41,849 nt of DNA from a virus, in IMG/VR virus record IMGVR_UViG_3300010885_007698, positions 1-41,849 of that record; one strand, given 5' to 3'. A model generated the notes under the pieces. That model did not search any database, was not told the origin of the DNA, and saw nothing but the letters and a program-made list of their open reading frames with translations. Below, in pieces: positions 2,014-24,528 of the stretch (positions are counted from its first letter, which is position 1; every line of letters starts with the position of its first letter). The position numbers and the translations under genes were made by a program.

Positions 2014-3156
2014 ATGGGTCAATTTAAACCAATGGTCAAGATGATGACCACGGAGCCTTCAGTTGAACTGAAGCTCAAAAAGGGTGGCGCTGTGAAGAAA
2101 GCCATGGGCGGCGACATGTCTGGCGATCAAATGCCAGCGTTCTCACCCATGGGTAGCTCCTTGGGCGCTCCTCGTGGCGGCATGGCTCCATCAGCGGCTC
2201 CTAAAAAGCCATCTATGGCTATGCGCAAGAAAGCCATGACACCTACAGCCTCAGCATTAAGCATGGCTGCACCGCCCACCATGAAAAAAGGCGGCAAAGC
2301 TGAAGGCGGCGACGCTGACATGGCGCAAGACAAGGCCATGATCAAGAAGGCGATCAGCCAACACGATGCTCAAGAGCACAAAGGCGGTAAAGGCACTAAG
2401 TTGTCCTTGAAAAAGGGCGGCAAGATGGCTACTGGCGGTGTGGTCATGGGCAATGCTGGTGGTTTTAAAAAGGGCGGAAAGATTCAGGGCCACTACGCCT
2501 TTGGCGGTGGTGTCCAGACTTCTGATGTGGTTACCGCAAGGGCTGGAGCAACTGGCACTACAACGGGTGGTGTGACCATGGGTAATGCTGGCGGTTTCAA
2601 AAAAGGCGGCAAGATCAAGCGATACGCCTTTGGCGGGGGCGTTCAAACCTCTGATATGGTTACTTCAAGGGCTGGCTCGACTGGCACTACAACAGGCGGC
2701 GTTACTATGGGCAATGCTGGTGGCTTTAAGAAGGGTGGTGCTCCAAAAAAGTTTGCTGAGGGTGGATCAGTCCAAGACGACGGTCGCCCTCAGAAGATGG
2801 CGCAAGGGAATAAACCCCCATCAAAACCTGTGCGCATTACAAACCTTGCTGGAACATTCAAAAAAGGCGGCGGTGTGAAGAAGATGGCTGGTGGTGGTTC
2901 CGAAAGTGACTACGACCCCATCATCGACCGTGAAATGGCCCGTAAAGCTGCTGAACAAGCTGCAAGCGTGTCTGACAACGAGAACATGCGTGACATGGTT
3001 CTTGGTGCTCCCAAGCGCATCCTTCAAGGTGCGAAGCGCATGATTGGCATGGGAGAAGGCTCAGTCTCTGATAAAGAGCCAAAGGCTATCACCAAGACTG
3101 AAAAGTCCGTGACCATCTCTCCTGCCAGCAAAAAGCGTGGCGGCAAAGTCTGCTAA
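2014..3156 (+). CDS. Lys/Gly-rich repetitive virion protein (KKGG motifs)
   Basis: A 380-residue, strongly basic protein built from KKGG-type motifs (KKGGAVKK, KKGGK, FKKGGKI). Residues about 140-245 hold three near-identical units of 43-44 residues, each with MGNAGGFKKGG followed by YAFGGGVQTSD and a Thr/Gly run. Met-rich stretches (about residues 10-110) and a more acidic C-terminal part (about 300-360) surround them. Composition suggests an unfolded, positively charged protein that could bind DNA or coat the inside of the capsid, but no enzymatic or known DNA-binding domain is visible. An AGGAGG site precedes the ATG by 6 bases. A terminator follows 8 bases after the stop. Function is unknown; its place among head genes suggests a virion or assembly role. 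Confidence 0.75.
   Translation: MGQFKPMVKMMTTEPSVELKLKKGGAVKKAMGGDMSGDQMPAFSPMGSSLGAPRGGMAPSAAPKKPSMAMRKKAMTPTASALSMAAPPTMKKGGKAEGGDADMAQDKAMIKKAISQHDAQEHKGGKGTKLSLKKGGKMATGGVVMGNAGGFKKGGKIQGHYAFGGGVQTSDVVTARAGATGTTTGGVTMGNAGGFKKGGKIKRYAFGGGVQTSDMVTSRAGSTGTTTGGVTMGNAGGFKKGGAPKKFAEGGSVQDDGRPQKMAQGNKPPSKPVRITNLAGTFKKGGGVKKMAGGGSESDYDPIIDREMARKAAEQAASVSDNENMRDMVLGAPKRILQGAKRMIGMGEGSVSDKEPKAITKTEKSVTISPASKKRGGKVC
2446..2745 (+). repeat. Coding tandem repeat, three units of 129-132 bp
   Basis: Copies of the codons for MGNAGGFKKGG begin at 2446, 2578 and 2707, so the period is 132 then 129 bases. The intervening parts (FGGGVQTSD...AGxTGTTTGGV) are also alike, but with many silent changes. This points to old duplication kept for the protein sequence. 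Confidence 0.85.
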
Positions 3157-3164
3157 ACCAAGGT

Positions 3165-3188
3165 AGAGGCTTCGGCCTCTGCTTTTTT
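3165..3188 (+). terminator. Intrinsic terminator with UUCG loop
   Basis: AGAGGC (3165-3170), loop TTCG (3171-3174), GCCTCT (3175-3180), then GC and six T (3183-3188). A 6-bp stem capped by the very stable TTCG tetraloop and followed by T makes a classic rho-independent terminator. The next ribosome site (AAGGAAC) starts almost at once, so it probably attenuates rather than stops late transcription. Confidence 0.8.
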
Positions 3189-3199
3189 AAGGAACAAAT

Positions 3200-3604
3200 A
3201 TGGCTGATGCAGTAACAAGCCAGACGCTGCTTGATGGTGAGCGTCTTGCAATCATGAAATTCACAAACATCAGTGATGGCACTGGTGAAACAGCGGTGAC
3301 CAAGGTCAACGTTTCAGCTTTGGCAAAGAGCGCATCTGGACTGGCTTGTACAGGCGTGTCTGTGACAAAGATCACTTCTGTGTGTCATGGTATGGAAGTG
3401 CGCATGTATTGGGATGCATCAACAGATGTCCCATTCTTTATGAGCACCATCAACACCAACTATTGCAACGACTTCTCTGAGTTTGGTGGCCTCACCAACA
3501 ATTCAGGAGCAGGCAAGAATGGCAACATTGTGTTTTCCACGGCAGATGCATCTTCTGGCGACACATACACCGTTGTCCTTGAAATGCTGAAATACTATAG
3601 CTAA
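3200..3604 (+). CDS. Small virion protein, hypothetical
   Basis: A 134-residue protein with alternating hydrophobic and polar residues, suggesting a mostly beta fold. 'SDGTGETAVTKVNVSALAK' (residues about 29-47) and the C-terminal 'GDTYTVVLEMLKYYS' are typical of small structural proteins found between capsid and adaptor genes in uncultured short-tailed phages. No membrane segment, signal peptide or catalytic motif is seen. It is preceded by a terminator and an AAGGAAC ribosome site, and the next gene begins 2 bases after its stop. I recognise the family style only; a head-decoration or head-closure role is an inference from position. Confidence 0.65.
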   Translation: MADAVTSQTLLDGERLAIMKFTNISDGTGETAVTKVNVSALAKSASGLACTGVSVTKITSVCHGMEVRMYWDASTDVPFFMSTINTNYCNDFSEFGGLTNNSGAGKNGNIVFSTADASSGDTYTVVLEMLKYYS

Positions 3605-3606
3605 TC

Positions 3607-4122
3607 ATGCCAAGCAAATCACCTTCCCAGCACCGTTTAATGTCAGCGGTAGCTCATAACCCTAAGTTTGCCAAGCAAGTTGGCATTCCTCAAAAGGTTG
3701 GCAAAGAGTTTGCTAAAGCTGATGAGGGAAAAAAATTCAAAGAAGGCGGACTCTATGAAAACATTCATGCAAAACAGCAAAGAATATCTGAAGGCTCTGG
3801 TGAAAAAATGCGCCGAGTTGGTAGCGAAGGTGCGCCAACGGCTCAAGCCTTCCGAGAGTCAGCCAAAACAGTAAAAAAAAAGGTAGGCGGCCCTAGCCTT
3901 GCCGTTGGGCGTGGTGAGAAGCTGCCAGTCTCTAAGGGCGCTGGATTGACCGAGAAGGGTCGAGAGAAGTACAACCGTGAGACAGGGTCGCACTTGAAGG
4001 CTCCACAGCCACAGGGCGGCAGCCGCAAGGACTCCTTTTGCGCAAGGATGGAGGGCGTTGTTGAACACGCCAAGGGAGATGCGCCAAGAGCAAAGGCATC
4101 TCTGAAACGATGGAAATGCTGA
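3607..4122 (+). CDS. Small basic phage protein with DUF6321-like C-terminus
   Basis: A 171-residue basic protein. The C-terminal part (about residues 110-171) carries the run GLTEKGREKYNRETGSHLKA, then DSFCARMEGV, and ends KRWKC. I associate this with DUF6321, a domain recurrent in phage structural clusters. The N-terminal half (residues 1-60) is Lys/Ala-rich, with HNPKFAKQVGIPQKVGKEF, and resembles a short helical DNA- or capsid-binding segment. The start lies 2 bases after the previous stop, which suggests translational coupling; the upstream ribosome site is weak. Its function is unknown in the family. Placement between capsid and adaptor genes suggests a minor head protein. Confidence 0.7.
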   Translation: MPSKSPSQHRLMSAVAHNPKFAKQVGIPQKVGKEFAKADEGKKFKEGGLYENIHAKQQRISEGSGEKMRRVGSEGAPTAQAFRESAKTVKKKVGGPSLAVGRGEKLPVSKGAGLTEKGREKYNRETGSHLKAPQPQGGSRKDSFCARMEGVVEHAKGDAPRAKASLKRWKC

Positions 4123-4134
4123 TAAGGAAAAACA

Positions 4135-5193
4135 ATGGCGTACTCAGGAACGGTCGGCACAACAGTCATCAATGTTCAAACTTACATTGACCATGGCGCT
4201 CGTCGGGCTGGAAAGCTTGCCGAGGAATTGACCTCTGAGCAGCAAATCTCCGCACGAGAGTCACTTTACTTCCTGTTGTCCAACCTCATCAACATGGGGA
4301 TTCAATACTGGTGCATCAGCAAGAAGGTTTACGGTGTCCAGCCTGACAAAGCTGTCTATGAACTGCCTGTAGGCGGTAACGATGTGTTGCAGGCGCTGTA
4401 TCGCCGCATGAACCGCCCGACAGGAAGCTACACAGCTTCTTCTGGAGTGGCTGCAAACGCCTTTGACAGCGACATTGCCACCAAATGCACCCAGAGCGCC
4501 ATAAACGGCAACATTGGGGTCAATTACGGCACTGGCAACACGGTCTACGTTGGCTCAATTGGGGTTATGCCGGGGGTCACAGGCTCGTTTAACGTGCTTT
4601 TTGAGGTGTCCAGTGACGGAGCCACATGGACAACGCTCTACGCCCCCGGTGTCACCGCTTGGGTGGACGGTGAATGGCAGTGGTACGACATCAACACGGG
4701 TGCAAATGCCCAGTATTACCGCATGCGGGAGACTGGCGGCAACACTTTGAGCGTTCGTGAACTGTATTTTGGCAACAATGCCACCGAAATCACCATGGCT
4801 CGGTTGAATCGTGACGACTTCACCAACCTGCCAAACAAGAACTTCACAGCAAACCAGCCGTTTCAATATTGGTTTGACCGCACAGTGCCGCAGGCAACAA
4901 TTTACCTGTGGCCCGTCCCTTCAGACCCTTTTGTGCAGATGACTGTGTGGTACTCACGCCAGATCATGGACGTTGGGGCGCTCACAGACGAGCTTGAGAT
5001 ACCTCAGCGGTGGCAGTACGCCATCCAAGCGATGCTGGCCCACCAGATGGCGCTGGAGTTGCCCGGTGTGGACATGCAGCGCATCATGTACTTGGAAGCT
5101 CAGGGCGAGAAAGCTTTCAACCTTGCCGAACAGGAAGAGCGGGACAAGTCACCGATCTACTACAGCCCGAATATTTCAGTTTACACAAGGTGA
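4135..5193 (+). CDS. Head-tail adaptor (gp4-like) with discoidin-like insert
   Basis: A 352-residue protein read as a portal-binding adaptor that seals the head and carries the tail. Residues about 20-65 give a helical N-terminus (EELTSEQQISARESLYFLLS). Residues about 225-345 give the recurrent phage adaptor pattern 'FQYWFDR...IYLWPVPSD..VQMTVWYSRQ', followed by 'IPQRWQYAIQAMLAHQMALELPG', shared in outline with the 211-residue adaptor at 17022. Between them, residues about 95-215 form an extra beta-rich domain (FDSDIATKCTQ, VLFEVSSDGATWTTLY, YYRMRETGG) that resembles an F5/8 type C (discoidin) carbohydrate-binding fold. An AAGGAAAAAC site precedes the ATG. The sugar-binding role of the insert is inferred. 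Confidence 0.7.
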   Translation: MAYSGTVGTTVINVQTYIDHGARRAGKLAEELTSEQQISARESLYFLLSNLINMGIQYWCISKKVYGVQPDKAVYELPVGGNDVLQALYRRMNRPTGSYTASSGVAANAFDSDIATKCTQSAINGNIGVNYGTGNTVYVGSIGVMPGVTGSFNVLFEVSSDGATWTTLYAPGVTAWVDGEWQWYDINTGANAQYYRMRETGGNTLSVRELYFGNNATEITMARLNRDDFTNLPNKNFTANQPFQYWFDRTVPQATIYLWPVPSDPFVQMTVWYSRQIMDVGALTDELEIPQRWQYAIQAMLAHQMALELPGVDMQRIMYLEAQGEKAFNLAEQEERDKSPIYYSPNISVYTR

Positions 5194-5197
5194 CATC

Positions 5198-5473
5198 ATG
5201 CCAAAGTTCCTTGACACCACGGGGATGTCAGACATAGCGATCTTTGTGTGTGATAGGTGCAAGATGAAGCGCCCACATGCAGAGTCACGAAACGATCCCA
5301 ACTTTCCCGGCCTCCTTGTCTGTGGACAGGGCTGTGCAGATGATTTCGATCCGTATCGTCTTCCTGCCCGAAAAACAGAGAAAATAACCATCAGATTCCC
5401 AAGACCAGATTTGGCATTGGACGGTGTTGTTGATCAGTCGCCAGCGTATGGCGGCAAAGTTATCACCCCATAA
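5198..5473 (+). CDS. Small zinc-ribbon-like phage protein
   Basis: A 91-residue protein with two paired Cys motifs: CDRCK near residues 18-22 and a C-x3-C pair (CGQGC) near residues 43-47. This spacing can bind one zinc ion. The motif layout (CDRCxMKRP...LLVCGQGC..DFDPYR) matches a small protein often found beside adaptor and fibre genes in environmental phages. I chose the ATG 4 bases after the adaptor stop. An upstream in-frame extension would lie wholly inside the adaptor gene and reads as a shadow of it. A ribosome site is weak (AAGGTGAC), so translation is probably coupled. Function is not known. Confidence 0.75.
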   Translation: MPKFLDTTGMSDIAIFVCDRCKMKRPHAESRNDPNFPGLLVCGQGCADDFDPYRLPARKTEKITIRFPRPDLALDGVVDQSPAYGGKVITP

Positions 5474-5488
5474 ATTTAAGGACAGAAA

Positions 5489-8400
5489 ATGGCACAGTCA
5501 GGTTACACCCCCATCCAGCTTTACTACAGCACCACCGCAGGCAATCAACCAACCTCTGGCAACCTTGCAAACGGCGAGTTGGCAATCAACACCAACGACG
5601 GTGTCTTGTACTACAAGGACAGCAGCGGCATTGTTCAAGTGATTGCATCAGGTAGCTCTGTGTCGCTGTTGGCAGTGACTGCCGCCACCACAACCAACTT
5701 GGCTTCCCTGTCTGGATTGCTGACCGTTGATGGCATTACATTGACTGCCAGCCAGCGTGTGCTGGTCAAGGATCAGACGCTGAGTCAAAACAACGGTGTG
5801 TACGTTGCTGCTGTTGGGGCGTGGAGTCGCTCAATTGATGCCAACAGTGCCGCTGAAGTTTCTGGTCGCATCATCTCTGTTCGTTCTGGAACAACATGGG
5901 GTGGAACTCAGTGGGCAACCACGTTCAAGTCTACTGACACGCTTGGCACTACAGCCATGCCTTGGTATCAAGTTCTTGAAAACACTGCTGCTGGTACTGG
6001 TGCAGGTAATTTGGGTGTTGGCACAGGTGCTTTGGCATCTAATACGACCGGGGCATCAAATACTGCTGTTGGATATAACACTTTAAACGCAAATACCATT
6101 GGTGCTCTTAACACTGCTTTTGGTTATCAGGCTTTGGATGTAAACACAACGGGCATAAGGAATACGGCTATTGGTGCTGATTCGCTCGGTGCAAACACAA
6201 CAGGTATTGAAAACGTGGCTGTTGGAAGAAACGCCATGCGACTTAATACCACAGGCTCAAGCAATGTTGCTGTTGGTCAAGAGGCTTTACAAGCAAACAC
6301 GACAGCATCAAACAATGTTGCTGTTGGTTATCAAGCGGGTTTTACCAATACATTTGGAGATATTACTGCGCTTGGATATCGTGCTGGGTACAGCAACACA
6401 ACGGGCGCTGAAAGCACTTTTGTTGGAAATTCTGCTGGATTTTTAAATACCTTTGGCCCCGCAAATACTTATATGGGTAGTGCGGCAGGGTATCAAAATG
6501 CAACAGGCGGATACAACACAGGTATTGGCGACAACTCTTTAAGATTTAACTTGGCTTCAAACAATGTTGCCGTTGGTTATCAGGCTGCTTATACCAATAC
6601 AACAGGTACAAGTTTGACAGCAGTTGGCTATCAAGCTCTTAAAGCAACCACCACAGCAACAAGCAATACAGCCGTTGGTTATTTGGCAGGAACCAACTCA
6701 ACAGCTAGTGGTGTAGACGCTTTTGGCGCACAGGCATTACGCTTCAACACTACCGGGGCAAATAATGCAGCTTTTGCATATAACTCGCTTTACAACAACA
6801 CAACCGGAAGTAACAACGTTGCTGTTGGTGCGGCGGCATTGTTTACCAATACTTTTGGCGGAAACAACGCCGCAGTAGGTTATTACGCTCTTCAAAGCAA
6901 CACCACAGGAAATTACAATACAGCAATAGGTATCTATGCCCTTACCGGGAATACCGCAGCAGATAACAACACCGCTGTAGGCTACCAAGCTTTGTATGCA
7001 AATACAACTGGTACAACAAACACAGCGGTTGGTGTCAGTGCATTGTCTGCAAATACTATTGGCATTGAAAATACTGCTGTTGGATATTTTGCGCTTACTG
7101 CAAATACAACTGGAACTTACAACACCGCTGTTGGAAAAAATGCAATGTCGTCAAATACCATTGGCGGCACTAATATTGCTATGGGTCGGTCTTCGCTTCA
7201 AAGCAATGTAACGGGTAATGCTAACATTGCCGTAGGCTACCGATCTTTGATATCAAATACCTTTGGCGGAGCCAATGTTGCACTTGGTAGAGATACTTTG
7301 CAAGCAAACACCACAGCATCAAACAACACTGCTGTAGGGCATGAGGCTGGATATTCAAATACGTTTGGCAATATAAATGCTTTTGGCTCAGGAGCAGGAT
7401 ATTCCAATACAACAGGCACTGCAAATACCGCACTTGGTCAGGCGGCTCTTTATACAAATAGCACTGGAAACTACAACACGGCTGTTGGCTATACGGCATT
7501 GCAATTTAACACTGGCGGCTTTAATACTGCTGTTGGTTATCAAGCTCTTTACACCAACACTACAGCATCAAACAACACTGCTGTCGGAAACGCAGCTTTG
7601 GCCCTTAACACATTTGGCGCAAGTAATGTTGCAATTGGCTTGCAAGCACTTTACACCAGCACTACCGCTTCAAATAATACTGCTGTAGGTTATCAGGCAG
7701 GATTATTGGTAACAACTGGCGATGGCTTGGTATTTGTTGGTTCTACTGCGGGAGCCGCAACAACCACTGGCGCAGGTAATACTGGAATTGGATTTGCTTC
7801 CCTTACCGCAAACACAGCAGGGCAAAATAATACAGCCGTGGGACTGTCATCACTTCGCTCCAACACCACAGCATCTAACAACACTGCTGTAGGATATCAA
7901 GCGGCATACTCGAATACCTTTGGCACAGGTATTTTGGCTCTTGGCTACCAAGCTTTATATACAAATACAACTGGAGCCAATAACACTGCCGTTGGTTCTG
8001 GTGCGCTTATTTCCAATACCACTGCCTCAAACAACACTGCCGTAGGCTATCAAGCTCTTGGTTCCAACACCCTTGGTTCAGAATTAACAGCCGTTGGTCG
8101 CAGGGCTTTGTACTTGAACACTACTGGCGGTCAGAATACCGCCGTCGGAAACTTTGCTCTTACCGCAAATACGTTTGGAGCATCAAACAGTTCCTTGGGA
8201 GAAGAGGCGCTACAAGCCAATACCACAGGAAACTACAACGCCGCATTTGGCGCAAGCGCTCTTTTCTCCAACACCACGGCAAATAACAATACCGCTGTAG
8301 GCTATCAGGCTGGATATACAAACACTAGCACAGGCATTTCAGCTTTTGGATACCAAGCTCTTTTTTCCAACACCACAGCACAATTCAATACTGCCGTAGG

Positions 8401-11400
8401 CCAGCAAGCCGCTTATACAAATACCTTTGGCCCGAACATTACGGCTATTGGTTATCAGGCTCTTTATTTAAATACCACTGGTGCTTCAAATACAGCGGTT
8501 GGACGTGAAGCATTAAAAGCAAATACCATTGGAATTAACAACATAGCTATGGGCGTAACTTCGCTCGCTGCTAACACTACAGGTAGCAATAACACTGCTA
8601 TTGGAACATCAGCCCTTCAAAACAACACGTTTGGTGGAAACAACACAGCCTTAGGAACTCAAGCTCTTAACTCCAACACCACACAATCTAACTTAACAGC
8701 CGTAGGTTATCAAGCAGGTTATACCTACACAGGTGGTTCTGAACAAAGCGGTTCTGTCTTCCTTGGAGTTTATGCGGGTAGGCTTACTACGACTGGCAAT
8801 GATTCAGTATTTGTTGGCGCACAAGCTGGAGAAAACACTACCATTGGTGTTAATAACGTAGCTATTGGAAGTACTGCATTAAATGCAAATACCACAGGCA
8901 GTAGCAATGTTGCCGTTGGCACTAACTCATTAAAAGTAAACACCATTGGTACACAAAACACGGCAATTGGTCACAGATCGCTTTATTCCAACACAACAGG
9001 CGATCAAAACATTGCTGTAGGTTATCAGGCTCTTTACAACAACACCACAGCAAATAGCAACACTGCTGTAGGTTATCAGGCTGGATATACAGGCGTAACA
9101 AATACTGGTGTAGCGGCATTTGGGTTTCAAGCTTTATACACCAGCACTGGAAAAGACAATGCGGCGTTTGGCGCACAGGCATTGAAACTTAATACAACAG
9201 GCACTCGAAATTCTGCATTTGGTACATCTACGTTAGGTTCTACTGATGGTGCTTTGGGTAAAAATACAATTGGAACTGATAACTCAGCTTTTGGGTATCA
9301 AGCTAATTCACAAAACACGACAGGAAATTACAATACTTCTGTTGGCTCTTTTGCGCTCTACTCCAACACCACAGCATCTAACAACACTGCGGTGGGGTAT
9401 CAGGCTGGGTATAGTAATACGACTGGAACCGAAAATACGGCACTGGGTACTTCGGCGTTATATACCAATACCGTAAATTCGTACAACACCGCTGTTGGTA
9501 GTTCCGCCTTAAATTTAAGCACCGGTTCGTACAACACCGCTGTTGGTCGTCAAGCCTTAGCAGTAAATGCGGCGGGTCAGTTTAATTCCGCAATTGGCGC
9601 ATCCAGTTTAGGCGGCAATACTTCAGGAAGTAACAATACTGCTCAAGGCTATCAAGCACTGTTTTCTAACACCACCGCATCCAACAACACTGCTGTTGGT
9701 TATCAGGCGGCTTACAGCAATACCACAGGTACAAATTTTGTTGCAATTGGGTATCAGGCTCTTTATAACACCACGGTATCTAGCAACACAGCAGTAGGAT
9801 ACACCGCTCTTATATCCAACACTACTGGCATTGATAACACTGGTGTTGGTTCACAAGTTTTGATAGCCAATACAACAGGCGCAAGCAATACGGCAATGGG
9901 AGTTACAGCACTTGTTGCCAATACAACTGGCTCAAGTAATACTGCTTTTGGTAAAGATGCGCTTAAAGCCAACACCACAGCATCTAACAACACTGCTGTT
10001 GGTTACCAAGCTGGTTACTCAAACACGTTTGGTGGAATAACAGCGATTGGTTATCAAGCGGGGTACAGCAACGTTACTTCTATCAATGGTGTTTTTGTAG
10101 GGTATCAGGCAGGACTTTCAACCATTAACGACGGCAATACTGCTGTTGGTTATATTGCATTGAAAGCCAATACTACTGGTGGAACTAATACCGCAATTGG
10201 ATCAGGTGCGCTTACCGCCAACACAACAGCCTCTAACAACACGGCGGTAGGAGTTAACGCATTAGTTTCAAATACATTTGGTGGAAACAACACAGCCTTA
10301 GGAACTCAAGCTCTTAATTCCAACACCACAGCCTCCAATAACACTGCTGTAGGTTATCAAGCAGGGTATACAAACACCACTGGAATACAAAATGTATTTA
10401 TAGGGGCGCAGGCAGGTTACACATCTGGTGGAAATAACAACATTGCAATTGGCAATTCTGCTGGCTACAACTTAACAACAGGTGTTGGTAATATCTTTAT
10501 AGGCTCCGGTGTATCTGGTAGCGTTAACCCATCAGGCTATAGCGTAACCACTGGCTCCAAGAACGTCATCCTTGGTAACTACACAGGTTCTGCCGCACCC
10601 ATCTCTGCTACTGGTAGCAACTACATTGTGCTGTCTGATGGTGATGGTAATGTCAGACAGACCATAGACTCCAGCGGAAACGTTGGTATAGGTGTTACAC
10701 CTAGTGCTTGGCTGTCAACTACAAAGCCACTTCAGATTAGTTCCTATTCTGCGTTATGGCAAGCGCAAGGCAACGGTACAAACCTGTCCAACAACGTATA
10801 TAGAAATGCTTCGGCTGTTGATACTTATTTAAATAATCAAGCTGCCAGTTATTACTCTCAAAACGGGGGTGCTCATAACTGGCAAATAGCTGCATCAGGA
10901 ACAGCGGGAAATGCAATAACTTTCACCCAAGCAATGACGCTTGATGCAAGCTCAACGCTACTGCTTGGCGCTACTGCGGCAAATCTTGAGGCGGCATACA
11001 GCGTAACTTTGTGCGGTAGTGCTACCGCAGGAAACTCAGGGCAGCACACCTTTAACGGGCAAAACGGCAATACCGTGATGCGGATTAACCAAGCCTTTGC
11101 AGACTCAGCCTCAAGGGGTGCAATTTATTTTTATCGTTCACAAACTCAGGTTGGCTCTATCAACGTAAGTTCAACGGCAACCACTTACAACACATCAACA
11201 ACATCAGGAATAGTTGGAGTAGATGCAAGCACATTGGGATTTAACACCGCCTCCTCAGAACGTATGCGTATCGACTCCAGCGGTAATGTGGGTATTGGCA
11301 CTACCAGTTTGACCGGCATATCTTTGTCTGTTAGTAAGCTAATCACTGGAGCAACAACATCTTATGGTGTTCTTAATAACGGAACAATTCAATCTGATGT

Positions 11401-12655
11401 TACATCGGTGGGTATTGGTTATTCAGCATCCCTTTCTACAAATGCGGCTGTATTTACACTTGCAACACTAAATCATTTTGATGTGGCCCAACAAACTATT
11501 GGCGCTGGTTCTATTGTCACGGGACAAGTTGGTTTTAATTTAAGGTCAACTTTAACAGGCGCAACCAACAACTATGGTTTTTACGGTAACCTTGCTGCCC
11601 CTACATCTGGCATAACCACGACTGGAACAATCACTTCTATTTCCAGTAGCACGACAACGGTAACGGTTAACCACAACGCCATTACTTATACCAATGGGCA
11701 AGTAGTAACCATCTCTGCTACTGCAAACGCAACAGCATTGGTGTCTGGTGCAACTTGTACTATTCTGACGGTAGGAACAACAGACTTCACCTTGATTGGC
11801 GCTGCTTCAAACACTGTTGGTGTGTCATTTACAGCCACAGGCGTAGGCACTGGTACAGGTACGGTTACGCTGAACATCCAAGGCTCAGGAAAGACCGTTG
11901 CAGGGGCTGCATCAGGCTCGTTCACCTATACCACTACAACCAGCCAGACATTTGCAGCAGTCACTGTGTTGACAGGTTCTGTAACGGTATCTACTCGTTA
12001 CAACTTGTACATGGCGGGTACTGCTGATAACTATATTGCTGGTAATTTGGGTATAGGTACGACTTCGCCAAGTTCGTTTTCTTCAGGCTCCAATGTGGCA
12101 TCAATAGTTAAATCAAGCGGAAATGCTGGGATTATTAACTGCGTTGGCTCTGACAGCACATCAAATGTTGGGTTGTATTCCGGCATTAATGCAGCGGACA
12201 ATCCTGCAATTTTCTATCAAGCAAATCTTCGTTTTGGAACGACATCATCATCTAACGGAACAACTGGTTTTTCAGAACGTATGCGTATCGACTCAGTTGG
12301 TAACGCACAGTTTCAAGCTGGCGCAGTCATGCCGTATGCACCAGCACCAGCAGCAGTTAGTGCAGCAACAACGCTGACCAATGCCAACATTCAAGGGCAA
12401 ATAATTAGTGCCACAGGTACAACATACACCATCACAATGCCTTTGGGTACGACATTGGACACGTTGGCTACATGGGCAACCACCAACATTGCGTATGACT
12501 TCTTTGTCATCAACACAGCCTCTGGAGTTATCACGATGGCTGTAAACACAGGCGTTACATCATTGGGTTCACTGACTGTTGCAATTGGTGCATCAGCCCA
12601 TTTCCGCATCCGCAGAACAGCGGCAAGTACTTACGTTCTATATCGTTTAGTTTAA
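5489..12655 (+). CDS. Giant tail fibre with YadA-head-like repeats
   Basis: A 2388-residue protein, most likely a trimeric receptor-binding fibre. Residues 1-55 look like a virion-attachment segment (NGELAINTNDGVLYYKDSSG). Residues about 60-165 hold the common fibre module with 'RVLVKDQTLSQNNGVY'. Residues 185-1700 are about 85-90 tandem units of 16-17 residues with consensus NTTGxxNTAVGYQALxx, which resembles the left-handed beta-roll repeats of YadA-type adhesin heads. After this come 'SGNVGIGVTPSAW'-like modules with two SERMRIDS motifs and a final domain (about 2290-2388). I see no S74 intramolecular chaperone at the end. A small fibre-linked protein and glycosyltransferases follow, so the fibre may be chaperoned or modified. 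A ribosome site (AAGGACAG) precedes the ATG. Confidence 0.85.
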   Translation: MAQSGYTPIQLYYSTTAGNQPTSGNLANGELAINTNDGVLYYKDSSGIVQVIASGSSVSLLAVTAATTTNLASLSGLLTVDGITLTASQRVLVKDQTLSQNNGVYVAAVGAWSRSIDANSAAEVSGRIISVRSGTTWGGTQWATTFKSTDTLGTTAMPWYQVLENTAAGTGAGNLGVGTGALASNTTGASNTAVGYNTLNANTIGALNTAFGYQALDVNTTGIRNTAIGADSLGANTTGIENVAVGRNAMRLNTTGSSNVAVGQEALQANTTASNNVAVGYQAGFTNTFGDITALGYRAGYSNTTGAESTFVGNSAGFLNTFGPANTYMGSAAGYQNATGGYNTGIGDNSLRFNLASNNVAVGYQAAYTNTTGTSLTAVGYQALKATTTATSNTAVGYLAGTNSTASGVDAFGAQALRFNTTGANNAAFAYNSLYNNTTGSNNVAVGAAALFTNTFGGNNAAVGYYALQSNTTGNYNTAIGIYALTGNTAADNNTAVGYQALYANTTGTTNTAVGVSALSANTIGIENTAVGYFALTANTTGTYNTAVGKNAMSSNTIGGTNIAMGRSSLQSNVTGNANIAVGYRSLISNTFGGANVALGRDTLQANTTASNNTAVGHEAGYSNTFGNINAFGSGAGYSNTTGTANTALGQAALYTNSTGNYNTAVGYTALQFNTGGFNTAVGYQALYTNTTASNNTAVGNAALALNTFGASNVAIGLQALYTSTTASNNTAVGYQAGLLVTTGDGLVFVGSTAGAATTTGAGNTGIGFASLTANTAGQNNTAVGLSSLRSNTTASNNTAVGYQAAYSNTFGTGILALGYQALYTNTTGANNTAVGSGALISNTTASNNTAVGYQALGSNTLGSELTAVGRRALYLNTTGGQNTAVGNFALTANTFGASNSSLGEEALQANTTGNYNAAFGASALFSNTTANNNTAVGYQAGYTNTSTGISAFGYQALFSNTTAQFNTAVGQQAAYTNTFGPNITAIGYQALYLNTTGASNTAVGREALKANTIGINNIAMGVTSLAANTTGSNNTAIGTSALQNNTFGGNNTALGTQALNSNTTQSNLTAVGYQAGYTYTGGSEQSGSVFLGVYAGRLTTTGNDSVFVGAQAGENTTIGVNNVAIGSTALNANTTGSSNVAVGTNSLKVNTIGTQNTAIGHRSLYSNTTGDQNIAVGYQALYNNTTANSNTAVGYQAGYTGVTNTGVAAFGFQALYTSTGKDNAAFGAQALKLNTTGTRNSAFGTSTLGSTDGALGKNTIGTDNSAFGYQANSQNTTGNYNTSVGSFALYSNTTASNNTAVGYQAGYSNTTGTENTALGTSALYTNTVNSYNTAVGSSALNLSTGSYNTAVGRQALAVNAAGQFNSAIGASSLGGNTSGSNNTAQGYQALFSNTTASNNTAVGYQAAYSNTTGTNFVAIGYQALYNTTVSSNTAVGYTALISNTTGIDNTGVGSQVLIANTTGASNTAMGVTALVANTTGSSNTAFGKDALKANTTASNNTAVGYQAGYSNTFGGITAIGYQAGYSNVTSINGVFVGYQAGLSTINDGNTAVGYIALKANTTGGTNTAIGSGALTANTTASNNTAVGVNALVSNTFGGNNTALGTQALNSNTTASNNTAVGYQAGYTNTTGIQNVFIGAQAGYTSGGNNNIAIGNSAGYNLTTGVGNIFIGSGVSGSVNPSGYSVTTGSKNVILGNYTGSAAPISATGSNYIVLSDGDGNVRQTIDSSGNVGIGVTPSAWLSTTKPLQISSYSALWQAQGNGTNLSNNVYRNASAVDTYLNNQAASYYSQNGGAHNWQIAASGTAGNAITFTQAMTLDASSTLLLGATAANLEAAYSVTLCGSATAGNSGQHTFNGQNGNTVMRINQAFADSASRGAIYFYRSQTQVGSINVSSTATTYNTSTTSGIVGVDASTLGFNTASSERMRIDSSGNVGIGTTSLTGISLSVSKLITGATTSYGVLNNGTIQSDVTSVGIGYSASLSTNAAVFTLATLNHFDVAQQTIGAGSIVTGQVGFNLRSTLTGATNNYGFYGNLAAPTSGITTTGTITSISSSTTTVTVNHNAITYTNGQVVTISATANATALVSGATCTILTVGTTDFTLIGAASNTVGVSFTATGVGTGTGTVTLNIQGSGKTVAGAASGSFTYTTTTSQTFAAVTVLTGSVTVSTRYNLYMAGTADNYIAGNLGIGTTSPSSFSSGSNVASIVKSSGNAGIINCVGSDSTSNVGLYSGINAADNPAIFYQANLRFGTTSSSNGTTGFSERMRIDSVGNAQFQAGAVMPYAPAPAAVSAATTLTNANIQGQIISATGTTYTITMPLGTTLDTLATWATTNIAYDFFVINTASGVITMAVNTGVTSLGSLTVAIGASAHFRIRRTAASTYVLYRLV
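6041..10590 (+). repeat. About 85-90 coding tandem repeats of 48-51 bp
   Basis: The repeat block lies inside the fibre gene. Each unit encodes N-T-(T/I/F)-G/A-x-x-N-T-A-V-G-Y-x-A-L-x-x. Many adjacent units differ by silent changes, but several multi-unit blocks (for example ASNNTAVGYQA) recur almost identically at the DNA level, which would favour recombination and changes in length. It is neither a CRISPR nor an intergenic array, because the reading frame is open throughout. Confidence 0.9.
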
Positions 12656-17657: not shown

Positions 17658-18880
17658 GCTTTAACAGCCCCTTCAGCGGTAACGTCGTTCAACCGACCGA
17701 CGTAAGTTACGCCGCATATTCAATCTCGGCAGACACGCAACTTCAGTGGCCCATCAACAGTGAGCCAAACGTTAACTACGCTGCACGAATCATGCAGATC
17801 ACTGCGACGGCGGGTAGCCTCAAGCTGATCATGCCTCCAGCCAATCAAGCTTCGGTTGGTCAAGATGCCCTGATCCGTAACGTTGGCTCCAACACGTTCA
17901 CTGTGGTGGACTACGCTGGCAACACGATCATCTCTGTTGCTGCTGGTCAGGCTCAGTACATCTACATCACGACCAACGCTACAACTGCTGGCACATGGGG
18001 AATCATTGCCTTTGGCACTGGAACCTCATCATCGGATGCGGCTACCCTTGCTGGCGCTGGTTTGGTGGCTCAATCCACTACTCTGAACCAAAGTCACCCA
18101 ACTTCATACATTGCCAACAACGACACCTTTGTCGCTTCAGACCGTGCGCAAATGCATGTGTGGAATGGCGGCGCTGGAACCGTGACCCTTCCGCTGGTGA
18201 CCAATGTTGGCGACAACTGGTTCATCATGGTGCGCAATGCTGGCACGGGAACATTGACGGTAAATACCAGTTCTGGTCAAATTTTTGATGGCAGTACGCT
18301 CAAACTATTCCAGCCCGGCGACTCAGCGTTCATTGTCTGTACAGGAACTGACTACCTCTCAGTCGGATATGGTCAGGGAACCAACTTTGCGTTCTCTGCG
18401 CTTTCCTACGCTGTCACGACAGGCACATACACCCTGACCGCCAGTGAAGCAGCTAACACCATCCAAGAGATTACGGGTACGTTGAGCGGGGCGGTGACAA
18501 TTGTTTACCCGCCTGTGGTGAACTTGTACGTCATCAGTAACCAAACCTCTGCTGGCGGCAACACATTAACCGTCAAGACGGCAACAGGTACTGGCGTAAT
18601 TGTTCCCGCATCCTCACAGGTCACCGTGATTTGCGATGGCGTGAACTTCTACAACGCCAACACGACGCAGATTGGCGCAACAGCCATTTCCTTGATTTCA
18701 GGATCGGCCGCATCGCCTGCAATTAACTTTCTTGCCCAAACAAACACTGGCATGTTCTACAACACGAACTCGGTTGCATTTTCAGTGATTGGAACTCAGC
18801 GACTGTCGGTAACCGTTGATGGCATCACCGTCAATGGCATAGGCACGTTCACAGGCGGTATCACTGGGGGTACTTTCTAA
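17654..18880 (+). CDS. Beta-rich tail structural protein
   Basis: A 408-residue, Ser/Thr/Gly-rich protein without catalytic motifs. The N-terminal part (residues about 15-75) has 'AAYSISADTQLQWPINSEPN' and 'AARIMQITATAGSLKLIMPP', followed by repeats of the same kind of beta-strand unit: 'VTLPLVTNVGDNWFIMVRNA', 'YVISNQTSAGGNTLTVKTAT'. The C-terminal 'SPAINFLAQTNTGMFY' and 'IGTQRLSVTVDGITVNGIG' resemble fibre-module motifs seen in the giant fibre. It starts 4 bases inside the adaptor and its last base is the first base of the tail hub, so it is co-expressed with the tail. A tail spike base or short fibre is the likely role. Confidence 0.7.
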   Translation: MSFNSPFSGNVVQPTDVSYAAYSISADTQLQWPINSEPNVNYAARIMQITATAGSLKLIMPPANQASVGQDALIRNVGSNTFTVVDYAGNTIISVAAGQAQYIYITTNATTAGTWGIIAFGTGTSSSDAATLAGAGLVAQSTTLNQSHPTSYIANNDTFVASDRAQMHVWNGGAGTVTLPLVTNVGDNWFIMVRNAGTGTLTVNTSSGQIFDGSTLKLFQPGDSAFIVCTGTDYLSVGYGQGTNFAFSALSYAVTTGTYTLTASEAANTIQEITGTLSGAVTIVYPPVVNLYVISNQTSAGGNTLTVKTATGTGVIVPASSQVTVICDGVNFYNANTTQIGATAISLISGSAASPAINFLAQTNTGMFYNTNSVAFSVIGTQRLSVTVDGITVNGIGTFTGGITGGTF

Positions 18881-21800
18881 TGACCGAAAAAGTCTTTGCT
18901 CTAGACACGCAACCCGGCATCCAGCGGGATGGCACTGTCTTTGACATGAACTTTTACACCGACGGTCAGTGGGTCAGGTTTCAGCGTGGACGACCCAGAA
19001 AGATGCTTGGCTACTCACAGATCACCGATAAACTTGCTGGCCCCTCTCGTGGCATCTTTCAAGACTCGACATCTGGCCTGAGCCGTGTCTACAGTGGTTT
19101 TCAGAACGGCTTGCAAGTTGTTGCATTGAACAACGTAGGTGTTGGATCAGCCACTGACAATTTTTACTTTGGCGGCAAAATCCTCACCCTGTCTTCAATA
19201 ACCTCTGGTGGAACGAACTACACCAACGGTACTTACACAGGCATTCCTTTAACAACTGTTACTGGAATAGGTAACGGTGCAACAGCAAATATCACGGTGT
19301 CAGGTAATGCTGTCACTGCCGTCACGCTGGTAAATGGCGGGAACGGGTACTTGTACCTTGATACCCTCACCGCAGCGCCAGCGTCCATCGGTAACGGAAT
19401 CAAGACAACCACCTCGTTGGTTGGCGGTACTTTGTACGGCAATGGGAGCTACTTGGCTGTCCCGTTGATTTATGGCACTGGTTCCCCCGCAACTGGCGGA
19501 GTTGGCTCTGGAGCGACCGCAAACATTACTGTGGCTGGTAATGCAGTAACCAGCGTGACAATTCAAAACTCTGGCATTGGCTACACCGTGGGCGACGTGT
19601 TGACCTGCGCCAGCAACTACATTGGCGGCGGCAGCGGCATCATCAGTTCCTATGGCGGCTTGGTCGGCGGTCAATACTACACATCTGGCACTTACACCAA
19701 CGTCGCTTTTACAGGCGGAACAGGTTCTGGAGCCAAGGGTACTGTGATTGTTGGAACCAACTCAATTGACTATGTGTACAACATTGTCAGCGGCGGGGAC
19801 TACACCAACGGAAGCTTTGCCAACGTTCCTTTAACTGGTGGTTCTGGAACTGGTGCAACAGCGATCATTTCCGTTTCTGGCGGCAATGTGATTGATGTCA
19901 CCATGGTCTACGGAGGCAACAACTATGCTGCCAATGACGTTCTCTCCGCAACTGCGGCAAGTATTGGTAATGGCATTGCAACTATCTCGGTGACGGCGAT
20001 TGGATCGGGATACCCTGACGGCATCTATTCAAACGTCCCGCTGACCAACATAACTGGCTCAGGCTCCCTTGCTCTGGCGACCATCACAATCTCTGGTGGT
20101 GCTGTTGTGGCTTGCGCAATATCGTATGCAGGCATTGGCTATGCAACTACGGATACCTTGACGGCAAGCAACACAAACCTTGGCGGAGCAGGAACTGGTT
20201 TTCAAGCAAGTCCGGCAACGATCAGTCCGTCAACAGGATTTCAGTGTCAGGTCAATTCCGTGACCACTGGATCGGTTACTCAGGTGACCTTGACCAAAGA
20301 TGGCCTTGGCTATGCCGCAGGCGACATCTTGAGCGTTCCTGCTGACGATATTGGTAAAAAGAACGGCATCATTGGTTCCCTTGGGGGTATCACGGGTGGT
20401 AGCTTCTACACAAGCTCAACCAGCGCAACTGGCATAGGAACAATTGCAGGCACTGTGATGAACATCACGTCTGTGTCGGATGGCTCCTATGTACTTGGTC
20501 AAACCATCACGGGTACAAGCGTCTCCCCAGACACCACCATCACCTCCTACGGAACCCCGACAGCAACACTTTCCACCGTGGTGATCACGGGAACTGCTGG
20601 CGACTTCAGTTGCACATCAACCACTTTGGCAGTTGGAAACACAGTCACCATCAGCGGAACCTTTGGTGGCACTGGCAGCATTACTGGATATGTAAACCCC
20701 ACGTCTTACCTAATATCTGAAACCAACGGAACAACTACATTCAAGCTAACCACCTTATCAGGCGCAGCGGTGGTAACAACGGCGGGTACGCCTACAGGCT
20801 TGACTTACAAGCTGTATGGCGGCACTGGCTCGTACAACGTGAGCAAGTCCCAGACGGTCACCTCAACCACATTGTCGGGTCTTGGAATCTTCCGCAACAC
20901 CGCATTGACAGGCGGCACAGGAACTGGCGCAACAGCAAACGTGACTATCACTCAAGGCGTGGTGACAAATGTGACGCTGGTGACCCCCGGCATCAACTAC
21001 GCTACTGGCGACAACTTGACCGCCTCCTTTGCGGGTGTGACCAACGGTATTGGCAGTGGAACTGCGCTGGTTGGCGGCACTCTGTACACCGATGGAACCT
21101 TTGCAAGCGTACCCCTAACAGGCGGCTCTGGCGCTGGCGCTGTGGCGACAATCACGGTCTCAGGCAACACGGTAGTGGGAATTGTCCTGACAAGTCCCGG
21201 CACGGGGTACACCGTTGGAAACACCCTTACTTGCGCTGCCTCTTACATTGGAAATGGTGTCAACTCAAACGCCATCACCACCGCAGGCTCAAACTACCCT
21301 GACGGAACCTATGCCAACGTTCCCCTAACTGGCGGATCAGGAAAACTTGCAACAGCAAATATCACCATCACGGTTGGCGCTGTTACTGCATTCACCATTG
21401 TGAGCCGAGGAGTTGGATATACAGTTGGAAACACTTTATCGTTTGCTGCTTCGTCAGTTAATGGATACACCAACGGCATAGCAACCTTTGGAGCCATTAC
21501 AGCGGGGTCAAACTACACCAACGGCGTGTGGACAAATGTTCCCCTGACTGGCGGCGCAGGTACAGGCGCTACAGCCCAAATTACCGTAGCTGGCAACGTA
21601 GTGACGGCAATCACAATCACCAATAAGGGTAACGATTATGCTGTTGCAAACTCAATGTCGTGTCTTGCCAAATACATTGGCAACGGCATCAACACCAAGG
21701 GAACCATCAATGCTGGCTCTGGGTACACAGGAAAGGGCATAGCGACCCTTGGAACAATTACTGGCGGCAACACCTACACCAACGGCACATATTCTGGCGT

Positions 21801-23988
21801 GGCAGTGACAAGCTTGACGGGTACGGGAACTGGGGCCACAGCCAACGTTACTGTCTCTGGCAATGCGGTGACCGCTGTGACCATTGTGAACAAGGGCTAT
21901 GGGTATGCCGTGGCTGACTCATTGTCCGTGGCGGCATCCTTGATTGGTGGTACGGGTACAGGATTTTCTGTACCAGTGGCAACGGTTGGCCCAGCCACCT
22001 TTACAGCCGTCTCATTGATTGGCGGCACTGGAAGCCTCGCAACTGCTGACATTGTGGTCAATAACGGCGTTGTAACCACCGTCACCATGGTCGACCGTGG
22101 CATCGGGTATGCGGTAGGTAACCTGATGTCAGCCAATGCTTCGGACATCGGAGGTACGGGTTCTGGCTTCTCCTTCCCTGTGACTGCAATTTACGCAGGC
22201 AGCGGGTTTGCAGTGCCTGTGGCAACCGTGGTGACAAGCTCTGGCTTTACCAGCGTCATCACTGCGCCCTACGCAAGCTCCGGCTTTCAATTCAACGTTG
22301 CCACCTTGGGTAGCGCAGGCGGATTCAACATCCCAGTGACCTCGGTTTTGTCAAGCAACGGATTTCAGTTCACAATTCTGAGCACCACGGCAAGCTCTGG
22401 CTTCCAATTCAACGTGGGTTCCATCAACGCAAGCTCAGGGTTCTTGATTGGCGTTGATTCTTCGGAAGACAACTTCACCCCAACCGTCAATAACCTGTGG
22501 CAGTTGGACACGCTGTACAACGTAGCGGGAGGTGTTAATACGGTTCTGGCGCATCCCGGTCGCAATCTGTCCCAGATTGACAATATCGTAAACACCAACG
22601 TGTTTTATGGCCCAGTCACGGGAACCACCATGGAGCCATTGAAGGATACTGGCGGCCTAAACCCTACCAACAACTTCATCACCGTCAGCGGCGGCGTGGT
22701 CGCCTTGCACCCCTACGTCTTTGTGTACGGCAATGCTGGCTTGATCAAGAACTGCTCTGCTGGTGATCCTACAGACTGGAACAGCGCAGATGCAAACGAG
22801 GTCAACGTAGCCGCAGGAAAGATCATCAAGGGCTTACCCGTCAGGGGTGGCTCAAACTCGCCTTCTGGCCTGTTTTGGAGCCTTGACAGCTTGATCCGTG
22901 TGTCCTACATCGGCGGCGTTGGAACTCCTGCGCAGTACTGGCGCTATGACATCATCTCCAGCCAATCGTCCATCATGTCGTCACAGTGCGTGATTGAGTA
23001 CGACGGCATCTATTATTGGATTGGAACTGACCGATTCCTCATGTACAACGGCGTTGTTCAGGAAATTCCAAACAACATGAACCAAAACTATTTCTTCGAC
23101 AACCTGAACTACGATCAGCGCCAGAAGGTGTGGGCGACCAAGGTTCCACGGTTTGGTGAAGTGTGGTGGTTCTACCCAAAAGGCGATTCCACTGAGTGCA
23201 ACGATGCCATCATCTACAACATCCGTGAAAAGACGTGGTACGACGCTGGCACAGCAATGGGTTCACAGCGGTCGGCAGGGTACTTCTCGCAGGTGTTCCG
23301 CTACCCAGTCATCTCATCAAACGTTGTTAATGCAACTGGCGGCATGTACACCGCTTCAATTTCAACCGCTGGTGCGGGGTACACCGATGGCGTTTATTCG
23401 TATATTGCGGCTGTAGGCGGCCCCGGCACGGGCGCAACCCTTACCATTACCGTTTCTGGTGGCGCAGTCACCAAGCTGGTGGTTAACAACAAAGGAACTG
23501 GCTACACCGCAGGAAACGGCTTTTCGGCAAATATTCCCGGCTCTCCATCATCTAATTTTGCTGGAACCGTGACCACTACTTGCGACTTTGTCTCCCTGTG
23601 GAGACATGAGACTGGCACAGATCAGGTGTACGGAACCAATTCCAACGCCATCAAGAGCTACTTTGAGACCAACGACATTGGCTGGATATCTGGCGGCCCT
23701 GCGCAACCTGCTCAAGTTGGAGAGAACCGTTGGTTGCACATTGAGCGTGTTGAGCCTGACTTCGTCCAAGACGGTGAGATGGAGCTTTACATCCTGAGCC
23801 GTCCCTATGCCCAATCCCCAGACAATATCAGCAGCCCCTATCCTTTTAACCCAGACACCAATAAAATCGACATGCGTGAGCAGGGCAGAGAGCTTCGCAT
23901 GCGCTTTGTGAGCAATGTGTCAGGTGGCAACTACCAGCTTGGCAGAGTGGTCGTCAACGTTGACTTTGGAGATGTTCGTGGCTACTAA
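18880..23988 (+). CDS. P22 gp10-like tail hub with large repeat insertion
   Basis: A 1702-residue protein. The N-terminus (VFALDTQPGIQRDGTVFDMN, then YTDGQWVRFQRGRPRKMLGY) and C-terminus (MREQGRELRMRFVSNVSGGN, then YQLGRVVVNVDFGDVRGY) are typical of tail-needle hub/DNA-stabilisation proteins such as P22 gp10. Between about residues 95 and 1193 the hub is interrupted by about a dozen Gly-rich units around 60-100 residues apart, each with 'NVPLTGGSGTGATA...TVSGNAVTAV...GYTVGD', plus several short SSGFQF units. Another single unit sits near residues 1488-1565. The hub fold resumes at 'NLWQLDTLYNVAGGVNT'. The insert could form a long decorated arm or extra fibre. The start overlaps the previous stop by one base. 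Confidence 0.8.
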   Translation: MTEKVFALDTQPGIQRDGTVFDMNFYTDGQWVRFQRGRPRKMLGYSQITDKLAGPSRGIFQDSTSGLSRVYSGFQNGLQVVALNNVGVGSATDNFYFGGKILTLSSITSGGTNYTNGTYTGIPLTTVTGIGNGATANITVSGNAVTAVTLVNGGNGYLYLDTLTAAPASIGNGIKTTTSLVGGTLYGNGSYLAVPLIYGTGSPATGGVGSGATANITVAGNAVTSVTIQNSGIGYTVGDVLTCASNYIGGGSGIISSYGGLVGGQYYTSGTYTNVAFTGGTGSGAKGTVIVGTNSIDYVYNIVSGGDYTNGSFANVPLTGGSGTGATAIISVSGGNVIDVTMVYGGNNYAANDVLSATAASIGNGIATISVTAIGSGYPDGIYSNVPLTNITGSGSLALATITISGGAVVACAISYAGIGYATTDTLTASNTNLGGAGTGFQASPATISPSTGFQCQVNSVTTGSVTQVTLTKDGLGYAAGDILSVPADDIGKKNGIIGSLGGITGGSFYTSSTSATGIGTIAGTVMNITSVSDGSYVLGQTITGTSVSPDTTITSYGTPTATLSTVVITGTAGDFSCTSTTLAVGNTVTISGTFGGTGSITGYVNPTSYLISETNGTTTFKLTTLSGAAVVTTAGTPTGLTYKLYGGTGSYNVSKSQTVTSTTLSGLGIFRNTALTGGTGTGATANVTITQGVVTNVTLVTPGINYATGDNLTASFAGVTNGIGSGTALVGGTLYTDGTFASVPLTGGSGAGAVATITVSGNTVVGIVLTSPGTGYTVGNTLTCAASYIGNGVNSNAITTAGSNYPDGTYANVPLTGGSGKLATANITITVGAVTAFTIVSRGVGYTVGNTLSFAASSVNGYTNGIATFGAITAGSNYTNGVWTNVPLTGGAGTGATAQITVAGNVVTAITITNKGNDYAVANSMSCLAKYIGNGINTKGTINAGSGYTGKGIATLGTITGGNTYTNGTYSGVAVTSLTGTGTGATANVTVSGNAVTAVTIVNKGYGYAVADSLSVAASLIGGTGTGFSVPVATVGPATFTAVSLIGGTGSLATADIVVNNGVVTTVTMVDRGIGYAVGNLMSANASDIGGTGSGFSFPVTAIYAGSGFAVPVATVVTSSGFTSVITAPYASSGFQFNVATLGSAGGFNIPVTSVLSSNGFQFTILSTTASSGFQFNVGSINASSGFLIGVDSSEDNFTPTVNNLWQLDTLYNVAGGVNTVLAHPGRNLSQIDNIVNTNVFYGPVTGTTMEPLKDTGGLNPTNNFITVSGGVVALHPYVFVYGNAGLIKNCSAGDPTDWNSADANEVNVAAGKIIKGLPVRGGSNSPSGLFWSLDSLIRVSYIGGVGTPAQYWRYDIISSQSSIMSSQCVIEYDGIYYWIGTDRFLMYNGVVQEIPNNMNQNYFFDNLNYDQRQKVWATKVPRFGEVWWFYPKGDSTECNDAIIYNIREKTWYDAGTAMGSQRSAGYFSQVFRYPVISSNVVNATGGMYTASISTAGAGYTDGVYSYIAAVGGPGTGATLTITVSGGAVTKLVVNNKGTGYTAGNGFSANIPGSPSSNFAGTVTTTCDFVSLWRHETGTDQVYGTNSNAIKSYFETNDIGWISGGPAQPAQVGENRWLHIERVEPDFVQDGEMELYILSRPYAQSPDNISSPYPFNPDTNKIDMREQGRELRMRFVSNVSGGNYQLGRVVVNVDFGDVRGY
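19165..22440 (+). repeat. Gly-rich coding repeats inserted in the tail hub
   Basis: About ten or more degenerate copies of a unit reading '(T/P)(N/D)G(T/S)(Y/F)(T/A)NVPLTGG' followed by 'TGATA.ITVSGN.VTA.TI...G.GY.VGD.L'. Copies begin near residues 104, 190, 275, 310, 380, 680, 730, 800, 870 and 970. From 22190 to 22440 a second, shorter repeat type (SSGFQFxV) follows. The frame stays open, so both are protein repeats. Confidence 0.8.
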
Positions 23989-24246: not shown

Positions 24247-24528
24247 ATGAACTTTTTGGACTTATTCAACAAGGTGGCAAGGGTGGCAAGGCCATCCCAC
24301 CACGAATTTATACCGTTTACCTCAATGGATGAGCGGTTTGCGGAGTCGTCCCTTGACTCGCTAGACATGCTCATGATGTCGTTCTATATGTGCGAAATCT
24401 ATGAAATTGACGACGAGACAGCCAAGGAGCTACGTCCTGAGACAGTGCAAGAGTTCTTGGATGCAATCAACTTGCACAAGAAGCGTGACCCTGAGTCCAT
24501 CGAATGGGCAATGGAGTTCATCAAATGA
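24247..24528 (+). CDS. Acyl carrier protein-like
   Basis: A 93-residue acidic protein matching the ACP fold in its C-terminal two thirds. It has 'RFAESSLDSLDMLMMSFYM' (residues 30-48), with the phosphopantetheine attachment Ser38 in the L-D-S-L-D-M motif, then 'CEIYEIDDETAKELRPET' (helix III region, normally 'FDIEIPDEDAEKI') and 'VQEFLDAINLHKK' as helix IV. The first 25 residues (DLFNKVARVARPSHHEF) are longer and more basic than in ordinary ACPs. The gene has a GAGA-rich ribosome site and ends overlapping the ketosynthase start as ATGA, so the two are translated together. Modification by a host phosphopantetheinyl transferase is assumed, as none is seen here. Confidence 0.85.
   Translation: MNFLDLFNKVARVARPSHHEFIPFTSMDERFAESSLDSLDMLMMSFYMCEIYEIDDETAKELRPETVQEFLDAINLHKKRDPESIEWAMEFIK

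Follow-up and report, generated by a model that had tools for sequence, protein, structure and literature searches.

The window analysed here is the whole of a 41.8-kb record of a metagenomic bacterial virus (IMG/VR IMGVR_UViG_3300010885_007698). It contains a long repeat-bearing fibre gene downstream of a tail adaptor gene, and the features discussed below are as follows.

27-941: major capsid gene (Pfam Phage_capsid_4)
4135-5193, + strand: tail adaptor gene of SU10 type, where the fibre is predicted to dock (Pfam PF24175 SU10_adaptor, E 4.9e-7)
5198-5473, + strand: small conserved ORF of 91 aa with Cys pairs, between adaptor and fibre
5489-12655, + strand: fibre gene, ATG start, ORF of 2388 aa
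5489-5668, + strand: N1, conserved N-terminal anchor, aa 1-60, common to 87 ORFs with very different shafts
5669-5983, + strand: N2 domain, aa 61-165, 72-82% identity among the five nearest fibres
5981-10612, + strand: shaft, ~90 units mostly of 17 residues, aa 165-1708 (segmentation; AlphaFold2 solenoid)
10530-10682, + strand: last unit(s) and shaft exit cap, 92% DNA identity to contig L212
10683-12297, + strand: cassette of 541 codons, in frame, not in contigs L212 and L039, with ID[SP]xGN-type motifs at its ends
12298-12655, + strand: C-terminal tip domain, aa ~2271-2388, 92% DNA identity with L212
12668-12979, + strand: 103-aa ORF directly 3' of the fibre gene, function unassigned (phrog_7802)

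The fibre protein matched PHROGs 23837, 6002 and 4636 (virion structural / tail spike; E 3e-175 or lower), and searches of it against Pfam and NCBIfam returned no family. N1 was found in 87 ORFs of the loci examined, 19 of which carried at least four units (maximum 37 besides the window's own gene). Because N1 recurs in front of differing downstream parts, the N-terminus was taken to be a conserved anchor and the remainder to be exchangeable. Parts of the cassette were 67-77% identical to other fibres (L205, L206, L146), and the tip domain shared 59-70% amino acid identity with L207, L208 and L213. The fibre protein contains three IDSxGN motifs, which are present at both cassette ends. The model of the C-terminus (pLDDT 42) was too poor to use for the fold of the tip. 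Pfam gave no match to a Peptidase_S74 domain in the fibre, with the protein of Prochlorococcus phage P-SSM2 matched as a positive control, and none to the YadA outer-membrane anchor in the C-terminal 689 aa. A piece of the phrog_7802 ORF was also present 3' of the fibre gene in contig L104.

The repeats were delimited by PSSM segmentation, which identified ~90 units, 89 of them clear and one, the first, degenerate at aa 165. The initial annotation had placed 85-90 units of 16-17 residues at 6041-10590; that description was upheld with slightly wider borders (aa 165-1708, nt ~5981-10612). The unit consensus is NTAVGYQALYSNTTGSN. Spacing between units was 17 residues in 73 cases and 16 in 12, with a few of 20, 24 and 26; a 16-column rescan returned 87 units, and tightening the threshold left one run of 80 units. 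At a lag of 17, residue identity was 0.409, compared with 0.111 over 1000 shuffled sequences (sd 0.008, highest value 0.134; ~38 sd). TRF detected no tandem DNA array at the fibre repeats of the window, because the DNA copies of the units are divergent. Identity between units at the three codon positions was 0.56, 0.64 and 0.35, with a chance value of 0.30 at the third, a pattern that indicates constraint on the units at the protein level.

The fold was predicted with AlphaFold2 from 14 units and 31 related segments, modelled as a monomer. The 14-unit model was a parallel beta-solenoid (pLDDT 79.9, pTM 0.76) whose strands recur regularly at positions 2-4 and 11-16 of the unit, which supports the repeat-built rod of the initial annotation. 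A search of this model against BFVD matched the same 17-residue repeats in other viruses, the best match being to a protein of Bodo saltans virus (E 4.9e-16, TM 0.86, 47% identity). Foldseek against the PDB gave nothing at E<=0.001, and the unit-alignment profile gave only a chance match to PDB sequences. The VIA-align 2 matches listed included P22-, Sf6- and phi29-type appendage beta-helices (Z 14-18, up to 17.9), with an rmsd of 2.3-3.3 A in most rows listed. These appendage folds are right-handed parallel beta-helices. The matches to them hint that the monomer model may have the same hand, unlike YadA, although a monomer model may mislead. At the beta-roll rise of 4.8 A per layer (PMC9543794), and if each unit forms one turn, 90 units would give a shaft estimated at ~43 nm.

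The 17-residue NTAVGYQAL-type unit was found in other virion fibres, and the window fibre has both this unit length and the same predicted fold. It occurs in gp55 of Methylophilales phage Venkman ('FhaB-like adhesion protein'), a virion fibre gene, in gp37 of Roseobacter phage CRP-1, in gp48 of Pelagibacter phage HTVC112P and in PSSM2_298 of P-SSM2, the last of which has a Peptidase_S74 chaperone domain whereas none was found in the window fibre. These four fibres carry 23-33 units in a row, compared with ~90 in the window. Outside phages, the same solenoid is predicted for the FhaB-like adhesion protein of Bodo saltans virus, a giant-virus protein, and the same spacing of 17 is seen in repeat proteins of cellular Ignavibacteria and Bacteroidota genomes; several of these giant-virus and bacterial proteins have coiled-coil-like C-termini. 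A literature search on the repeat motif found nothing informative. The window fibre is an extreme example of a kind already known; its very long shaft is real, and the anatomy set out above is well supported.

The initial annotation had called the array a YadA-head-like beta-roll; prediction supports a beta-solenoid, and the YadA identity is not supported. YadA and BpaC heads, which form left-handed parallel beta-rolls, likewise consist of short repeats stacked as beta-coils, with a Gly-x-Asn ... Ile/Val-Gly motif similar to that of the window unit (GxNSVAIG in YadA, GxNTAVG here); BpaC has 42 repeats (PMC9543794). However, the repeat of canonical YadA heads, GxNSVAIGAxSxAx, is ~14 residues long (PMC9543794) and YadA and BpaC have an outer-membrane anchor, whereas the window units have 17 residues and the gene is part of a block of phage virion genes. 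Pfam YadA_head (PF05658) had no match in the window's record at E<=10, nor in hmmscan of the fibre or its fragments. The solved folds listed by VIA-align 2 were tailspike beta-helices; the absence of a YadA-type chain among the matches listed carries no weight against a YadA fold. A YadA domain has been reported in a pelagiphage fibre (PMC3909814), and in the related fibre of contig L003 eleven SHAEG units of 14 residues precede 88 17-residue units in one protein (L003 6412-6854 and 7295-11517). Since this fibre has both kinds of unit, and its SHAEG part matches YadA_head weakly (E 0.0055, under the family cut-off), a distant relation of the 17-residue units to the YadA head is possible, even though hhalign of the window units against the SHAEG units found nothing. 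Resemblance to the YadA head was kept as a lead only and the YadA label is not established; a genuine trimeric left-handed beta-roll of the YadA-head type, which grows and shrinks as similar DNA copies recombine, is an unlikely reading of the array.

The recombination component of that reading was examined at synonymous sites. Where two units share an amino acid, the codon was shared at 0.38, against 0.36 expected from codon usage, so that by this measure the units are near synonymous saturation, and adjacent units had no excess codon similarity (p 0.95). A weak excess at lag 5 (p 0.03, uncorrected) and slightly raised amino acid identity at lags 1 and 2 (p 0.02-0.03) are compatible with old duplications in the array, which are possible. 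The array of L003 served as an expanded control: its codon identity was 0.84 against 0.71 expected, repeated 20-mers made up 40% of it, and TRF found 83 copies of 51 bp. Within the window array, a single pair of exact 41-bp repeats (8630/10277) could recombine in frame. With units near saturation and neighbours no closer than distant units, the array nevertheless shows no trace of slippage or unequal crossing-over in the recent past, and the proposal that similar DNA copies recombine was not borne out, repeated 20-mers making up only 1% of the array. Unequal crossing-over between neighbouring units was rejected on these synonymous sites, and slippage is probably not the mechanism. Active codon diversification found no support either, since codon evenness in the array did not consistently exceed that in other genes.

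Repeat content differed among relatives, as had been expected initially. In the same fibre slot, contig L039 has 8 units and contigs L040 and L127 have none, all three with a major capsid protein 97% identical to that of the window; in L212 the N-terminus differs, the array has 26 units and the tip shares 92% DNA identity with that of the window. DNA homology between the window and L039 ends at 5988, the start of the array. Against L212 it drops from 83-100% to the background of 33% across two 30-base bins at ~10533, inside the last unit; this boundary is sharp (~10530-10540), with 92% DNA identity downstream and ~33% upstream. The in-frame 541-residue segment between exit cap and tip is absent from L212 and L039. 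These comparisons, mainly of two relatives, suggest that variation likely arises by module exchange at the shaft borders and at short motifs; the module boundaries themselves were directly located, and exchange at them would account for the differences.

The near-saturated array is mildly surprising and may be old. A further reading holds that the array is old, its DNA kept non-repetitive and its unit constant, and that the ~90-unit rod is protected from recombinational deletion and is either inherited or exchanged as a single module of fixed length; this we regard as doubtful.

The gene context bears on the type of tail and on the place of the fibre in the virion. The initial annotation of the phage as short-tailed agrees with the short-tail-type adaptor (PF24175). 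The adaptor is 69% identical in amino acids to the 'tail adaptor' of MW202545.1 (ctpbd312, a 57-kb circular genome), which has the same gene order as the window. The 91-aa ORF is 65% identical to the syntenic ORF of MW202545.1 and 51% to one in Caulobacter phage RW, and belongs to no Pfam family. Identity of the major capsid protein was 87% to MW202545.1, 77% to Caulobacter phage RW and ~40% to pelagiphages HTVC023P and HTVC027P. Among the window ORFs tested no tail-tube or tape-measure match was found, and the ORFs include a DNA-ejection-type match and a transglycosylase. In podoviruses, DNA-ejection proteins and a transglycosylase without a tail tube or tape measure fit a short tail. Gene content thus suggests that the phage would be short-tailed.

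Other genes of the late block were also recorded. A Beta-ketoacyl synthase-like gene (24504-25640; PF02801, E 5.7e-16) lies inside the late virion-gene block and is 63% identical in MW202545.1, where it is named 3-oxoacyl-ACP synthase. A 1702-aa virion protein is encoded at 18880-23988; part of it is 69% identical to the 672-aa 'phage stabilization protein' of MW202545.1, relative to which it has ~1000 extra residues of fibre- or baseplate-like sequence.

Six trimeric long tail fibres are attached to the adaptor ring of SU10, and their genes, gp12 and gp13, adjoin that of adaptor gp11 (PMC9509320). The window fibre gene likewise follows an SU10-type adaptor gene and encodes a conserved N-terminal anchor, features of long tail fibres of the SU10/T7 type, which supports its initial naming as a tail fibre. 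The SU10 fibre is split into two proteins with a coiled coil near the base, whereas a single gene encodes the window fibre. Downstream of its adaptor, MW202545.1 has two large fibre genes, compared with one in the window, and a 28-unit fibre ('endo n acetylneuraminidase'). It is quite improbable that the protein is instead a head (capsid) or decoration fibre: N2 matched PDB 9nx3 'capsid decoration protein' (phmmer, E 5e-5) and two of the PHROG matches are filed under head and packaging, but PHROGs places proteins named only 'virion structural protein' in that category, N2 also occurs within other fibre-like genes of relatives, and the gene stands directly 3' of the adaptor gene, as in SU10.

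An assembly artefact as the source of the repeat number is extremely unlikely, because the longest exact repeat within the array is 41 bp, which with 1% in repeated 20-mers is resolvable by short reads, the ORF is open across all units, and contig L002 (5.1 kb) is 100% identical to window 2532-7642, although this second assembly covers only the N-terminus and the first ~32 units and itself ends inside the array. Contig L038 bears the same sample code as L002 and has the same capsid gene, with a portal gene upstream. A 129-bp tandem repeat (2.2 copies) was observed at 2434-2720 in ORF 2014-3156, where L038 and L002, both contigs of the same virus, break.

The array length, which the initial annotation considered striking, was compared with that at other loci, picked by similarity and not as a census, using a profile trained on the window, so that counts elsewhere are lower bounds. 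At ~90 units the array is indeed very long, and among the loci examined it is the longest uninterrupted viral array; its lead is narrow, with 88 units in L003 and 71 in L004, both other IMG/VR contigs, followed by at least 65 in L005 and 50 in L007. Phage isolates had 23-33. An Ignavibacteria protein (L214 2296-10350, 2685 aa) has ~120 17-residue units, and modal spacing was 17 in all 80 bacterial loci.

The reading we prefer, and consider probable, is that of a short-tailed phage whose long tail fibre has an anchored N-terminus, a ~90-unit solenoid shaft, a receptor-contacting C-terminus and modules that are exchanged. From gene order and conservation, N1 (~60 residues), probably with N2, would anchor the fibre at the adaptor ring. 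The ~90 17-residue units are predicted to form a rigid parallel beta-solenoid shaft, most likely a homotrimer, and the C-terminal cassette and ~120-residue tip would contact the receptor. Anchor, shaft, cassette and tip may be swapped as modules, by recombination at the shaft borders and at the short repeated IDSxGN motifs; with modules exchanged, shaft length and tip would therefore change together or apart between close relatives.

Across ~80 contigs from many samples the capsid protein (27-941) was 91-97% identical; in the same contigs the neighbouring gene at 1015-2001 was often undetectable and the gene at 2014-3156 was mostly down to 33-50%. How long the shaft is and which type of tip it bears are basic variables in phage adsorption. 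In this lineage of closely similar capsid proteins, the fibre slot ranges from 0 to 90 units and has closely mappable boundaries, and the lineage offers a natural series in which to test the effect of shaft length and the exchange of fibre modules. The near-saturated array of the window and the recently expanded array of L003 would represent two histories behind similar repeat numbers.
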